This document shows, piece by piece, positions 904-7,239 of a DNA stretch of 7,239 nucleotides. The position numbers and the translations under genes were made by a program. Every line of letters begins with the position of its first letter. The stretch's first letter is position 1. Source of the DNA: an archaeon (lineage in GTDB: Archaea; Thermoproteota; Nitrososphaeria; Nitrososphaerales; CADDZS01); the NCBI GenBank assembly GCA_021792315.1, contig JAJYUX010000080.1, positions 1 to 7,239 on the forward strand, given 5' to 3'. The notes beneath the pieces are model-generated. The model was given only the letters and a program-made list of their open reading frames with translations. It had not been told where the DNA came from and made no database searches.

Positions 904-1776
904 TCATCGTTTGAAGATCAAATTCTTGTGTGCGAGGCTTGAGACGAAGGCTCTCGCTGTGATGGGGTTGACGCAGTAGGGTGGCAGTTTCAACTCAGTC
1001 ACTACTTGCTGACACAATTCTATCGGGTCATTCTTTCCTGTCTTCTTATCCATTTCGAGGACAGTTTCATGAATGCGCTGAAAATAGCAAACGCTCTCAT
1101 CTATTCGTTCCATCATTCGATAGTGCCCCTGAATCATGGTCTCAAAAGAAGATAACATGAACTCTGTCTTGTCCAATTTCGCGAGTTTTCCAAGTGAGTC
1201 AACAGAGTCAGAGATATCATCATACATCGGAAGGTCATTTGCGAGGAGAACAGCGTCGCCAGTTAAGACTACCTTTTGTTCACCGCCGAAGAGTAGTGAA
1301 ATCGATCCTCGCGAATGGCCTGGTGTATGAATCACTCTAGCAGTAGTGTCTTTTTGAAAAGAAAGAGTTTCTCCATCTGCAAGAAATCCATCTATGTGAA
1401 CAGGCCCCTGAACGAGAGAATCAAATCCCGGCACAGGTCTTTCCCTGAATTGCCGTGAAGTATTCTCTATCCATTCCTTCTCTCCCTTGTGCGCTAGAAT
1501 CTCGCAACCAGTTGCCTCGTGAATCGATCTTGCCGCTCCAATATGATCTGGATGAGAATGAGATAGAATCAATGTGGAGATTTCTTTCGGATCCCTTCCA
1601 ATTTTTCTGATATAGTCAAATATTCTTGATTCTGATCCTGAAACGCCGGTGTCAATGAGAGTTATCTTTTCGCCCAAAACCAAGAACACGAAGACCGTTC
1701 TATCAATTGTCTTTCCGGGAGCAACCGCTATTTTGAAAGGAATCTCCAGAGAGTGGATTCTCCCTGTAACCTGCAT
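904..1776 (-). CDS. Metallo-beta-lactamase fold hydrolase
   Basis: This 290-residue protein is a complete member of the metallo-beta-lactamase superfamily (glyoxalase II-like branch). The dinuclear metal site is intact: the HxHxDH motif is SHSHPDHIG (His73, His75, Asp77, His78), followed by His154 in HTPGHSRGS, Asp174 in LTGDAV and His218 in IQGHY. The strand LIDTGVSGSES near residue 40-50 is the usual first conserved motif. A C-terminal helical extension (about 220-290) resembles that of MBL hydrolases with a winged-helix-like tail. The family hydrolyses thioesters, lactones, phosphodiesters and other esters, and the substrate cannot be told from sequence. There is no signal peptide, so it is probably cytosolic. 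An AGGAGA ribosome binding site lies at 1789-1794, about 12 bases before the ATG. The plus-strand frames over it are shadows. Confidence 0.92.
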   Translation of the reverse strand: MQVTGRIHSLEIPFKIAVAPGKTIDRTVFVFLVLGEKITLIDTGVSGSESRIFDYIRKIGRDPKEISTLILSHSHPDHIGAARSIHEATGCEILAHKGEKEWIENTSRQFRERPVPGFDSLVQGPVHIDGFLADGETLSFQKDTTARVIHTPGHSRGSISLLFGGEQKVVLTGDAVLLANDLPMYDDISDSVDSLGKLAKLDKTEFMLSSFETMIQGHYRMMERIDESVCYFQRIHETVLEMDKKTGKNDPIELCQQVVTELKLPPYCVNPITARAFVSSLAHKNLIFKR

Positions 1777-2235: not shown

Positions 2236-3144
2236 TTATGGAAAGCTCATCGTGATTGATGATGTGCTCCCGGCATTAGGGCAGATGCCGGTGGCCGACT
2301 TTGTAATTCCACCCACGGTCGCGGTAATCGTAACCGAGGAACCGGGCTGGCAGCTGGAGATAGCGCCAAATGTTCCCTGATAGTATCCTGCGTAGGGAAG
2401 ACCCGGAATGAGTTGGAACTGCGCATACAAACTCTCGTAAAATGTCGAAGAAAATGGTTTGCCGTTGATCGCAACACTAGCTGGGTAGATGTAGACCAGT
2501 CCCAGATAAGTGGGCGTAGTCCAAGTTATACTCCCATCGACCAACGTAGGCGGCGGGCCAGGCGGAGGCGTGGTAGTGGTTGTCGTGCTCGTTGTGGAGC
2601 TCGTGGTGCTTGAGGTTGTGGTCGTTGAGGATGAGGTGGTATATTCCAGAACCCTGTTATTACTATAATCAGCGACCCATATGTTGCCGCTTGCGTCGAA
2701 AGCGAGACCGTCAAGCTCGTATAGTCCGGTTGAAGTCACTGAGTGACCACTACTTGTGAAAGTTGATTGTCCAAGGACCAAGCTTGCAGCTTCACCAGTC
2801 GAGAGCGAAGCGGCGTACTCGAGAACTCTGTTGTTAGCGAAATCTGAAACCCATAGATTCCCACCAGAATCGATTGCGAGATACAATGGATCGTCCAAAG
2901 CAGTAGACGATAGATCAGCAGTGCCGGTAGTGAAGCTCGACTGACCTATTACGAGGTTGGCCGCTTCATTGGTTGAAAATGGAGTGGGGAATTCTAGGGC
3001 CCTACTGTTTCCCGAGTCCGCGACCCACATGTTGCCCGTAGAGTCGAAGGCCATTGTGATTGGAGATGAGAATCCGGTCGAGCTGGTAGCACCTGCATAT
3101 GAGATAAAGTTAGCCTGTCCAATTACTTTACAATGATTTTGCAA
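2236..3144 (-). CDS. NHL-repeat protein with Ser/Thr linker, 5' truncated
   Basis: The 302-residue frame begins with three beta-propeller-type NHL units of exactly 58 residues, marked by VIGQ/VLGQ at residues 7, 65 and 123. Each carries the core (D)xxGNxWVADxxNNRxLEY. A Ser/Thr run (about 169-192) and PPPGPPP form a flexible linker to a C-terminal domain (about 201-302) with two cysteines (265, 288) that could form a disulfide. Related proteins are secreted or surface-bound and usually have a signal peptide and more repeats. Here the frame opens with a TTG only six residues before the first unit, after an in-frame TAA, with no signal peptide and no clear ribosome binding site. I infer loss of the 5' end, so the gene may no longer be expressed. 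Three units are also too few for a full propeller. Plus-strand and other frames here are shadows. Confidence 0.72.
   Translation of the reverse strand: MQNHCKVIGQANFISYAGATSSTGFSSPITMAFDSTGNMWVADSGNSRALEFPTPFSTNEAANLVIGQSSFTTGTADLSSTALDDPLYLAIDSGGNLWVSDFANNRVLEYAASLSTGEAASLVLGQSTFTSSGHSVTSTGLYELDGLAFDASGNIWVADYSNNRVLEYTTSSSTTTTSSTTSSTTSTTTTTTPPPGPPPTLVDGSITWTTPTYLGLVYIYPASVAINGKPFSSTFYESLYAQFQLIPGLPYAGYYQGTFGAISSCQPGSSVTITATVGGITKSATGICPNAGSTSSITMSFP
2569..2640 (-). repeat. Low-complexity Ser/Thr-coding tract
   Basis: About 24 consecutive codons of the NHL-repeat gene encode only Ser and Thr (residues 169-192), giving a purine/pyrimidine-skewed simple sequence. It is a likely site of slippage and length variation, and it separates the propeller units from the C-terminal domain. 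Confidence 0.75.
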
Positions 3145-4186: not shown

Positions 4187-4333
4187 ATGGTTACCGGTTA
4201 CTGCGTCAAGTGCAAAAAGTCCCGCGAAATCAAGAATCCTAAACAGGTAAAGCTGAAGAACGGACGACCTGCCGTTTCTGGAACTTGTACCAATTGCGGA
4301 ACTAAAATGTTTAAGATCGGCAAGCTAGCTTAG
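4187..4333 (+). CDS. DUF5679-type small zinc-ribbon protein
   Basis: This complete 48-residue gene begins MVTGYCVKCKKSREI and ends ..KMFKIGKLA. It has two CxxC knuckles, Cys6/Cys9 (YCVKCK) and Cys34/Cys37 (GTCTNCGT), separated by a basic linker with NGRPAVSG. This is the layout of the short archaeal and bacterial DUF5679 proteins, which are thought to bind one zinc ion; their role is unknown. The basic content (many Lys) fits nucleic-acid or ribosome contact, but that is an inference. A GTGAG motif (4178-4182) sits about 4 bases before the ATG. The gene has its own TATA-like box and terminator, so it is probably monocistronic and well expressed. Confidence 0.85.
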   Translation: MVTGYCVKCKKSREIKNPKQVKLKNGRPAVSGTCTNCGTKMFKIGKLA

Positions 4334-4853: not shown

Positions 4854-6290
4854 TTGATCAGATTCTACAACACGTTAGGGCGGAGGCTTGAAGAATTCAG
4901 GCCCTTGAAGAATGGAGAGGTCAGAATGTATACCTGTGGCCCTACCGTATGGAACTACCCGCACATCGGCAACTACAGAACATTTCTATTTGAAGATCTA
5001 CTCAGGCGATTTCTCAAACTGAGCGGTTACAGAGTCACGCAGGTGATGAACCTGACCGATGTGGACGACAGAATCATCAAGATCTGTCGCGAAAACGATA
5101 TAGGACTTCATCAGTTCACGGAGAAATATACAAGTGCTTTCTTTGACGATCTGAATTTTTTGGGCATCGAAAGAGCGGAGCACTATCCTCCTGCCACCGA
5201 GCATGTGCCCGCCATGGTTCAGTTAATTGAAGGCTTGATTCAAAATGGCCTAGCGTACAGAAGTGAAGACGGATCAGTTTACTACAGCATTTCAAAATTC
5301 CCTTCGTATGGCAAGCTCTCAGGGCTCAAAGTCGGAGAGTTGAAAACAGGGGCAAGAGTCAGACAGGACGATTACGACAAAGACTCCGTGCAGGATTTTG
5401 CGCTCTGGAAGTCCTGGGACAAAGATGATGGAAATATCTTCTGGGAAACGTCTCTGGGCAAGGGGAGACCTGGCTGGCATATTGAGTGCTCTGCAATGGC
5501 TATGAAATATCTGGGAGAGCAGTTTGACATCCATACGGGGGGCGTTGACAACATATTCCCTCATCACGAGAACGAAATTGCCCAATCGGAGGGATATACC
5601 GGTAAGAAATTTGTCAACTACTGGCTTCACTCCGAGCACCTTCTGATAAACGATGCAAAGATGGCGAAGCGCCTGGGAAACTTCCTAACGGTAAGCGACA
5701 TACGCGACAGAGGCATCAGTGGAGAAACTCTCAGGTTCCTCTTGCTCTCCGCCCACTACAGAGCCCAGCTCAACTTTACGGAAAAGTCACTGGAACAGGC
5801 TTCATCATCTGTAAGAAGAATTGAAGAGTTCATGCTTCGACTGGACGAAGAGTCCCAAAAGAATCAGTCTGGAGAATCTGATAGCAATTCTAGAGCATCA
5901 AAACTCATCGAGGATACACGAAGCAGGTACATGGAAGCGTTGCAAGACGACCTTGACACTCCGACCGCATTGGCTGGAGTGTTCGGATTCATTGGAGAAG
6001 TGAACAGAATGCTCGATCAGGGTCATTTAGGGAAGACAGAAGTGAAAACAATGTTGGACTTCATGAATATTGATTTCAACTACGTTTTTGGAGCTGTGAG
6101 AAGGCCCTCGGTCAATGACTCAGGAGTTTCTGAAGAGATTTCATCGCTCCTGAAAGAGAGAGAGACTGCGCGCCAAGTCAAGGACTGGAGGAGATCTGAC
6201 CTCCTAAGGAATAAACTACTGGAGAAAGGAATTGAAGTGCAGGATACTCCAGCGGGACAAAAGTGGAGAAAGCGCTCTGGTTCAGCTTAG
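4854..6290 (+). CDS. cysS: Cysteinyl-tRNA synthetase
   Basis: This 478-residue class I aminoacyl-tRNA synthetase attaches cysteine to tRNA-Cys in the cytoplasm. The start is TTG at 4854, with GAGG at 4841-4844, nine bases upstream. There is no in-frame upstream alternative, and the expected N-terminus IRFYNTLGRR begins right there. The Rossmann fold has the HIGH-type signature as PHIGN (residues 36-40) within CGPTVWNYPHIGNYRT, and the KMSKS-type signature as KMAKR (269-273). The zinc site that selects cysteine is complete: Cys28, Cys212 (HIECSAM), His237 and Glu241 (FPHHENEIAQSE). The C-terminal DALR-type helical domain and tail extend to residue 478, the usual full length for the family. Two antisense frames inside it are shadows. 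Confidence 0.97.
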   Translation: MIRFYNTLGRRLEEFRPLKNGEVRMYTCGPTVWNYPHIGNYRTFLFEDLLRRFLKLSGYRVTQVMNLTDVDDRIIKICRENDIGLHQFTEKYTSAFFDDLNFLGIERAEHYPPATEHVPAMVQLIEGLIQNGLAYRSEDGSVYYSISKFPSYGKLSGLKVGELKTGARVRQDDYDKDSVQDFALWKSWDKDDGNIFWETSLGKGRPGWHIECSAMAMKYLGEQFDIHTGGVDNIFPHHENEIAQSEGYTGKKFVNYWLHSEHLLINDAKMAKRLGNFLTVSDIRDRGISGETLRFLLLSAHYRAQLNFTEKSLEQASSSVRRIEEFMLRLDEESQKNQSGESDSNSRASKLIEDTRSRYMEALQDDLDTPTALAGVFGFIGEVNRMLDQGHLGKTEVKTMLDFMNIDFNYVFGAVRRPSVNDSGVSEEISSLLKERETARQVKDWRRSDLLRNKLLEKGIEVQDTPAGQKWRKRSGSA

Positions 6291-6638: not shown

Positions 6639-6687
6639 CGCCGGGAGCCGGATTCGAACCGACGAGGCCGAAGAACGGCCACGGGCT

Positions 6688-6702
6688 ATCTTCCGATAGG
6701 GA
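6688..6702 (-). other. tRNA intron 3 (15 bases, canonical position 37/38)
   Basis: It lies one base 3' of the anticodon, the usual archaeal intron site. Loop bases C32-U33-U34 can pair with AAG near the intron's 3' end, with 3' bulge AT^A and a CC/GG intron stem around UAUC. The motif is weaker than in the other two introns (three central pairs). A competing hairpin CTATC-GGAA-GATAG spans the 3' junction. Confidence 0.72.
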
Positions 6703-6710
6703 CTCAAGGC

Positions 6711-6732
6711 CTACGCTTCGACTGGATCGAAA
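6711..6732 (-). other. tRNA intron 2 (22 bases, position 29/30)
   Basis: Central helix GCGC/GCGT (four pairs, one G-U), three-base bulges GG^T and AG^G, and intron helix TTCGA/TCGAA around TCCAG. The outer exon helix is missing, as in relaxed archaeal splice motifs. Removal restores the five-pair anticodon stem, which is independent support for the cut sites. Confidence 0.78.
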
Positions 6733-6754
6733 CCGCGCAATAGTCCACTCTGCC

Positions 6755-6771
6755 ATCGGGATTCTATAATA
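6755..6771 (-). other. tRNA intron 1 (17 bases, position 8/9)
   Basis: The pre-tRNA folds as a canonical 3-4-3 bulge-helix-bulge: outer helix TGC/GCA, central helix CGGG/CCCG, intron helix ATT/AAT with loop ATAG, and bulges AT^T and AT^G at the two cuts. The exact cut is ambiguous by up to three bases because GAT repeats at both junctions, but every choice gives the same mature sequence. Confidence 0.75.
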
Positions 6772-6782
6772 ATCCCGGCAAA

Positions 6783-6794
6783 TGCCATCCCGGC
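6783..6794 (-). repeat. 12-base copy of the spliced tRNA 5' end
   Basis: GCCGGGATGGCA on the minus strand is identical to mature tRNA positions 1-12, i.e. to exon 1 joined to exon 2. It lies three bases upstream of the 5' end assigned here, giving a 15-base period between the two GCCGGGAT blocks. It may be a leftover of tandem duplication or the real 5' end of the tRNA with a longer (32-base) first intron. Either choice predicts the same mature tRNA. Confidence 0.7.
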
Positions 6795-6823
6795 ACTAGT
6801 TAGCATGACCTCTGGGCGCCAGC

Positions 6824-6829
6824 TTAAAA
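6824..6829 (-). promoter_or_regulatory. TATA-like box for the tRNA-Ser gene
   Basis: TTTTAA lies 30 bases before the upstream 12-base copy and 45 bases before the assigned 5' end. With a start about 25 bases downstream, the leader would be roughly 6 bases to the copy or 21 bases to the assigned end, so the spacing mildly favours the upstream end. Confidence 0.4.
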
Positions 6830-6889: not shown

Positions 6890-7239
6890 ATGAGTGAACA
6901 TTCGGAGCGTGGCTTCAGGTTTCTGGAGCACACAACTGACGCTGAGATTGAGGCATTTGGGAGGGGACTGAATGACTCCTTCGAGAATGCCGGACTGGCT
7001 GCCGAAGACTTGATGGTCGATCTGGCTAGCATAAGGCCCATTACACAAAAGAACATCGAGGTGACTGGAGAAGACATTGAATCTTTGCTGTACAACTGGC
7101 TCGAGGAGCTTATCTCTCTGCAGGATATCGAAGGACTGTTGTTTTCCAAATTCAGTTGTTCTATATCAAAATCGAAAGATAGATTAAAACTGAAGGCTAC
7201 TGCTTCAGGCGAAAAATTCGATCCGACGAAAGATCGGAA
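6890..7239 (+). CDS. Archease, cut by the right edge
   Basis: The frame starts with ATG at 6890 and stays open for 116 codons to the window edge, lacking the last few dozen residues of a family of about 140. The N-terminus FRFLEHTTDAEIEAFG carries the archease HTxD motif (His14, Asp17), followed by a typical FENAGLAAEDLMVD helix, the central LLYNWLEELI segment and the late GEKFDPTKD motif. Archease activates the RtcB RNA ligase by speeding its guanylylation and so supports tRNA exon joining in the cytosol. No strong ribosome binding site precedes the ATG, so a short or absent leader is likely; TAAATC at 6863-6868 could be its core promoter. It diverges from the three-intron tRNA, an RNA whose maturation it should assist. 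The minus-strand frames here are shadows. Confidence 0.93.
   Translation, partial: MSEHSERGFRFLEHTTDAEIEAFGRGLNDSFENAGLAAEDLMVDLASIRPITQKNIEVTGEDIESLLYNWLEELISLQDIEGLLFSKFSCSISKSKDRLKLKATASGEKFDPTKDR

Follow-up and report, generated by a model that had tools for sequence, protein, structure and literature searches.

How can an intron be spliced out of a tRNA precursor if it lies directly behind the 5′ strand of the acceptor stem? With an intron so close to the 5′ end, the splice motif and the acceptor stem are mutually exclusive. The question is raised by a tRNA gene on contig JAJYUX010000080.1, of which we analyzed a stretch of 7,239 nucleotides (the window). The host is an uncultured, Nitrososphaerota-type archaeon, and the best relatives of the cysteinyl-tRNA synthetase encoded at positions 4854-6290 (plus strand) go by names like Nitrososphaerales, Thaumarchaeota and Nitrososphaerota archaeon. 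The tRNA gene is flanked by this synthetase gene and by the start of an archease gene (from 6890 on, plus strand), of which 6890-7237 (Pfam PF01951) lies within the window just beyond the tRNA gene. Archease is the activator of the RtcB tRNA ligase, which we take to be the enzyme that would join the exons of the tRNA-Ser(UGA) described here. The window further encodes a zinc-ribbon-like protein of 48 amino acids (4187-4333, plus strand; Pfam DUF5679), an NHL-repeat protein with a Thr/Ser-rich linker (2236-3144, minus strand) and a metallo-beta-lactamase-fold protein (904-1776, minus strand).

The tRNA-Ser(UGA) gene occupies positions 6779-6639 of the minus strand, and its 141 nt consist of exons of 8, 22, 8 and 49 nt separated by segments of 17, 22 and 15 nt. 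Exon 1 (6772-6779; all features of the gene are on the minus strand) comprises the true 5′ acceptor strand GCCGGGA followed by U8. Intron 1 (6755-6771, 17 nt, position 8/9) has a 3-4-3 bulge-helix-bulge (BHB) motif in which C3-G6 (CGGG) pair centrally with CCCG, the bulges are A7U8^U and AU^G9, and the outer pairs are U-1:A12, G1:C11 and C2:G10. Exon 2 (6733-6754, 22 nt) holds positions 9-29, that is, the D arm and the start of the anticodon stem. Intron 2 (6711-6732, 22 nt, position 29/30) again has a 3-4-3 motif, with the central helix GCGC/GCGU and an inner helix of 5 bp (UUCGA/UCGAA). Exon 3 (6703-6710, positions 30-37) contains the UGA anticodon and is followed by intron 3 (6688-6702, 15 nt) at the canonical position 37/38. 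Exon 4 (6639-6687) runs from position 38 to the discriminator G73 and includes the variable arm, the T arm and the 3′ acceptor strand. Drawn by hand, the motif at 29/30 is strict and the one at 37/38 relaxed, with 3 of 4 central pairs; the motifs at 8/9 and 29/30 bear out the original prediction of clear 3-4-3 motifs in two of the three segments. Its claims of complete arms and of an intron share above one third likewise hold, as the acceptor stem GCCGGGA/TCCCGGC is paired at 7/7 positions, the D, T and long variable arms are there, and 54 of 141 nt (38%) are intron. All exons lie in order on one strand inside 141 nt, and we reject a split or permuted tRNA gene.

Joining the exons gives a cloverleaf of 87 nt with the anticodon UGA, which ARAGORN calls tRNA-Ser(tga). 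No tRNA was found by ARAGORN in the window, in the precursor or in a form in which only the 17-nt intron is retained; with introns allowed, it calls tRNA-Ser(tga) in forms that retain a single intron of 22 or of 15 nt. Rfam gave no tRNA match at E ≤ 1 in the window. Its one weak match, to a plastid 3′UTR family (E 0.75), overlaps the T arm on the opposite strand and is a T-arm look-alike. The suspicion that standard scans may miss this gene was therefore justified.

A gene overlooked by standard scans could be a pseudogene or a chance tRNA-like sequence. We therefore turn to its relatives. Among the matches listed by a scan of genome contigs, most were distant cysteinyl-tRNA synthetase genes, and the Thaumarchaeota contig L004 served as the entry to related genomes, which are apparently mostly draft assemblies. 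BLAST with the tRNA gene matched 12 of 12 relatives. Nine of them, all nine genomes examined of the family of G318, carry orthologues with the same three intron sites, and the remaining three (G323, G200, G212) are outgroups without the 8/9 intron. In G318 itself the synthetase gene (73% identity of the product) and the tRNA gene share a contig, with the tRNA gene 1.4 kb past the synthetase gene. The ten mature sequences of the family (window plus nine) are nearly identical and all 87 nt long; exon 2 is the same in 9 of 10 with a single change in G309, and the 37/38 site is shared by 10/10. With the window included, the segments measure 16-42 nt at 8/9, 19-43 nt at 29/30 and 10-28 nt at 37/38. 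ARAGORN calls tRNA-Ser(tga) for all ten spliced forms and for none of the ten precursors; taking out the segments restores a full cloverleaf, as in archaeal BHB-intron tRNA genes of the multi-intron type. Chance tRNA-likeness is excluded because nine relatives share nearly the same exons, with segments at the same three sites. Moreover, in the nine family genomes (the window's own is not among them) BLAST at E ≤ 10 found no second full-length tRNA-Ser(UGA) match. Given the intact arms and the near-identical exons in 9/9 family genomes, we regard a pseudogene or a chance resemblance as practically negligible. By sequence comparison, the predicted tRNA-Ser(UGA) gene with three introns in 141 bases and of these lengths is confirmed as real, and the three segments are presumably removed as introns by splicing.

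The splicing machinery of the family may fit such motifs. Seven of the nine family genomes encode two endonuclease-domain proteins, G304 one and G250 none. Among the readable proteins of the relatives, one kind retains a His, which we take to be the catalytic residue of the endonuclease, and the other kind is without it. By analogy, this pair resembles the heterotetrameric splicing endonucleases, which are said to have a broad specificity, and the same assembly type may apply here. We also observed that tRNA genes of the family are markedly intron-rich: several tRNA-like genes in G318, G307 and G315 (loci L182-L241) reach lengths of 140-190 nt and seem to have introns in the D region and the anticodon arm.

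Just beyond the stretch covered by the original prediction, and absent from it, is a second copy of the 5′ acceptor strand. The leader copy GCCGGGA (6788-6794, minus strand), the proposed placeholder strand, starts fifteen bases before the true 5′ end and is followed by the spacer TGGCATTT (6780-6787, minus strand), then by GCCGGGAU and the 8/9 intron. T(-1), which ends the spacer, could form a pair with A12. The leader copy is present in all ten family genes. Their spacers differ, measure 4-26 nt and all end in T, and at position 7 the copy has A or G in agreement with the acceptor. A simple motif search found a putative TATA-like promoter element, TTTTAAG, at 6823-6829 (minus strand) in the window; in 9 of 10 family genes the distance from the start of such a motif to the leader copy is 33-44 nt, and in G250 it is 54 nt. 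With the motif at this distance upstream, the copy is probably part of the transcript.

We then asked how strictly the copy is tied to the 8/9 intron across the order. An order-wide search with a spliced form and reading of the loci gave five further 8/9 introns, each with a copy. We also searched 400 genomes of the order with an intron pattern that does not require the copy, GCCGGGRT and GCAGAGTGG with 9-39 nt between; longer introns, such as the one of 42 nt in G315, and other acceptors escape this pattern. Matches came from 34 genomes. The matches in G001, G172, G148 and G141 are not tRNA genes by sequence, and 30 are. G334 failed the first tRNA test, having an extra T-loop intron, and was added by eye. 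Together with G315 and the window, a set of 32 tRNA-Ser(UGA) genes with the 8/9 intron results, and all 32 have the leader copy in some degree. In 21 the copy is exact, and in these base 7 tracks the acceptor (A with A, G with G). Five genes have a copy with one changed letter (G174, G272, G273, G274 and G140, where the change retains a G-U pair), and six have a five-letter copy, GCCGG then TC (G070, G102, G317, G080, G083, G167). The spacers vary from 1 to 26 nt, T(-1) is found in 26/32, and the central helix of the 8/9 splice motif has 4/4 pairs in 25 genes and 3/4 in seven. In G281, G199 and G338, all outside the family, the 8/9 intron is the sole intron. G334 (L312) shows another set of three introns, at 8/9, in the D loop and apparently in the T loop, next to its leader copy.

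Controls without the intron were taken from the best-matching loci of the order-wide search (257/400 genomes matched; 30 loci taken). Of 17 such genes, including the three outgroups of the family BLAST, all except L243 could be parsed. Not one of the 16 parsed genes has a leader 7-mer with more than 5/7 Watson-Crick pairs to the 3′ strand. A copy of at least 6/7 is thus present in 26/32 genes with the intron versus 0/16 without it (Fisher p 3e-8, relatedness ignored). Two of these genes without the 8/9 intron, in G261 (L245) and G206 (L246), carry GCCGGGT and ACCGGGT upstream at about the right place, and these are likely decaying relics of a lost module.

Beyond this tRNA the search has a narrower reach. 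In a phylum sample, the pattern of copy plus intron matched 1/398 genomes, namely G250; the pattern is specific to the letters of tRNA-Ser(UGA) and therefore uninformative on other tRNAs. A scan of loci from G307, G315 and G318 gave 66 tRNA-like candidates, not all of them tRNAs. Within 100 nt upstream, no candidate shows its own 5′ strand again at 7/7 positions; four have a second match more than 100 nt off, and in L232 a match lies within the gene. As judged by eye, these candidates are without an 8/9 intron, so the rule linking the 5′ intron and the copy was examined on tRNA-Ser(UGA) only.

Having two copies of the 5′ strand, one must ask which of them starts the tRNA. Measured from the TATA-like motif, the leader copy stands where a tRNA would be expected to start, and one can draw a splice helix that uses the same CCCG; the downstream copy would then be inside a longer intron. 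However, the two copies differ in 11/32 genes, in which the downstream one is perfect, partly through selection as both pattern and test require perfection. U follows the leader copy in just 15/32, whereas U8 follows the downstream copy in 15/15 genes that were found without requiring U8. We therefore consider it very improbable that the leader copy is the real 5′ end. We also tried by hand to draw a second BHB that would excise the spacer together with the true strand, as CCGG is self-complementary; its outer and inner helices are absent, and we reject it.

The history of the module was followed on a tree of elongation factor EF-2 from 39 genomes, 24 with and 15 without the 8/9 intron. Genomes with EF-2 missing or partial, or with an unparsed intron state, are outside the tree (the intron-bearing G304, G320, G338, G319, G326, G337 and G272, and also G256 and G275), and G178, with an unread intron state, was removed from a second EF-2 tree. 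The intron state changes 8-9 times, and at least seven changes are forced by well-supported branches. The state is mildly clustered on the tree (20/500 shuffles were as low). Among near-sisters, G199 has intron and copy and G271 has neither. The changes on the tree and this near-sister pair indicate that intron and copy come and go jointly, with one sister pair retaining a decayed copy.

The copy could be a leftover without function, produced when the 8/9 intron arose through duplication of part of the 5′ end. The copy in the window runs on as GGCA (6783-6794, minus strand) like the 5′ end of the spliced tRNA (GCCGGGATGGCA), as expected from a duplicated 5′ end, and in G318 nearly so; this hints that the copy originated when a gene lacking the 8/9 intron was duplicated. 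Furthermore, the sisters G261 and G206 retain degraded copies without the intron, so a copy can outlive it. A mere leftover would hardly stay exact in 21/32 genes, however, while the spacers vary from 1 to 26 nt. No intron-bearing gene is without the copy, although recombination between identical 7-mers should lose it easily, and the copy decays where the intron is gone. We thus hold a functionless leftover for rather unlikely, whatever the origin of the copy.

If the copy is maintained, what does it pair with? When the gene is folded without its leader, the acceptor stem is formed and the splice motif is absent; we therefore tested the leader. ViennaRNA folds were computed for the 32 precursors with the natural copy and with the copy replaced by seven A. 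The natural copy is predicted to pair with the 3′ acceptor strand at P ≥ 0.90 in 27/32 genes, and all five exceptions are five-letter copies. With seven A instead, the 3′ strand pairs with the true strand (P ≥ 0.5 in 28/32), whose mean pairing in the intron hairpin falls from 0.52 to 0.07. With the natural copy, the true strand is within the intron hairpin at P ≥ 0.5 in 20/32 genes. The exact splice helix exceeds P 0.7 in just 8/32; a competing register or other pairing is often favored. In five of the six genes with five-letter copies the true strand is predicted to win the 3′ strand, and this group fits the placeholder idea poorly.

Shuffled copies, folded for ten genes, behave otherwise than the all-A replacement: the true acceptor stem is not restored (mean P 0.13), and the splice helix is not clearly lower (0.30 versus 0.34). 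We suspect that GC-rich shuffles pair elsewhere. For the ten family genes with the leader retained, the copy outcompetes the true strand even after removal of the 8/9 intron (mean P 0.94 versus 0.02) or of all introns (0.87 versus 0.08). In forced folds of the spliced leader-bearing form the copy is favored by 0.7-6.0 kcal/mol in 9/10 genes, and in the window the true strand is favored by 0.4. As the folds of the spliced form prefer the copy, a last strand exchange would need tertiary structure or an enzyme. On the whole, pairing of copy and 3′ strand is well supported by conservation; its purpose is less so.

Such pairing might serve another step, be it 3′-end processing, protection of the precursor, control of RNase P or the start of transcription. 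It would give a closed acceptor stem before splicing, and the copy lies near the expected transcript start. Yet the copy occurs only with the 8/9 intron, and its base 7 tracks the acceptor instead of being part of a fixed promoter sequence. A combined role is compatible with both observations; another step on its own we judge unlikely.

We favor, with moderate confidence, that the leader copy is a placeholder which frees the 8/9 splice motif and clamps the tiny 5′ exon. The sequences and their folds establish the structure with three introns, the presence of the copy together with the 8/9 intron, and the predicted pairing. The steps that follow are inferred, from transcription of the copy through splicing, clamping and strand exchange to the action of RNase P. 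The three BHB introns would be removed by splicing endonuclease and ligase. The 8/9 motif would engage the start of the tRNA: the intron would pair with C3-G6, and the D-arm strand with G1C2 and, in 26/32 genes, with T-1 as well. As the motif occupies the true 5′ strand, this strand would be unavailable to the 3′ acceptor strand at the same time. In the precursor the leader copy could instead pair with the 3′ acceptor strand and leave the true strand free for the splice motif. Once the site is cut, the 5′ exon of 8 nt, to which the leader remains attached, would be tethered by the copy to the rest of the precursor and so be kept ready for ligation. The true strand would displace the copy when splicing is complete, and the leader would be cut off last, presumably by RNase P.

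If the copy indeed solves the conflict between splice motif and acceptor stem, tRNA maturation would include a strand-exchange step. This would explain how introns can reside in the most constrained part of a tRNA, and it would provide a sequence signature for tRNA genes missed by scanners. The placeholder idea can be tested directly on the natural copies of seven, six and five letters and on the near-sisters, of which one has the module and the other does not. In more general terms, precursor tRNAs could carry a placeholder strand in the leader. It would hold the 3′ strand during splicing of a 5′-proximal intron, keep the exon clamped while cleavage and ligation proceed, and then be displaced; intron and copy would form one module, gained or lost together across an archaeal order. 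For this wider statement we see the chances as evenly balanced.

How does this gene compare with known systems? Archaeal tRNA genes with up to three introns are described, mostly from Thermoproteales, in the accessible parts of PMC8450103, PMC4033280 and PMC3218864, and the original prediction agrees with print in this respect. Its view that three introns in one gene are rare needs care, as up to three are published and all nine family genomes have the same three sites. For Thaumarchaeota, noncanonical introns and heterotetrameric splicing endonucleases are published (PMC8450103, PMC4033280, PMC3218864, PMC4090602; excerpts). What appears to be new is the leader copy of the acceptor strand and its link to the 8/9 intron; up to three introns per archaeal tRNA were already known. 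In the literature searched, mostly outside subscription papers and in excerpt, we found no account of an acceptor-strand copy that is conserved in the leader and linked to an intron.

The multi-intron genes of Thermoproteales (Pyrobaculum, Thermofilum) likewise combine several BHB introns, canonical and noncanonical, up to three, according to the same excerpts (PMC8450103, PMC4033280, PMC3218864); the gene of the window belongs to another lineage and has the leader copy. Position 8/9 is not among the intron sites in the accessible text of PMC4090602, whose list ends with "etc."; the 3/4 intron of Thermoproteales given there also breaks the region of the 5′ acceptor strand, at a different site. 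In the split tRNAs of Nanoarchaeum and Caldivirga extra sequences also pair and hold the exons for the splicing endonuclease (PMC3218864, PMC4033280, in part). Here, in contrast, there would be a single transcript, and the holding strand would be an exon copy that pairs with the 3′ strand of the tRNA. Finally, a fragment of the 5′ end is also found upstream of the two-intron tRNA-Thr gene of Caldiarchaeum (PMC3293823, in the part accessible). That fragment lies 1.8 kb off, beside a mobile element, and was read there as gene disruption, whereas the copy described here lies 1-26 nt from the tRNA and is retained across the order.
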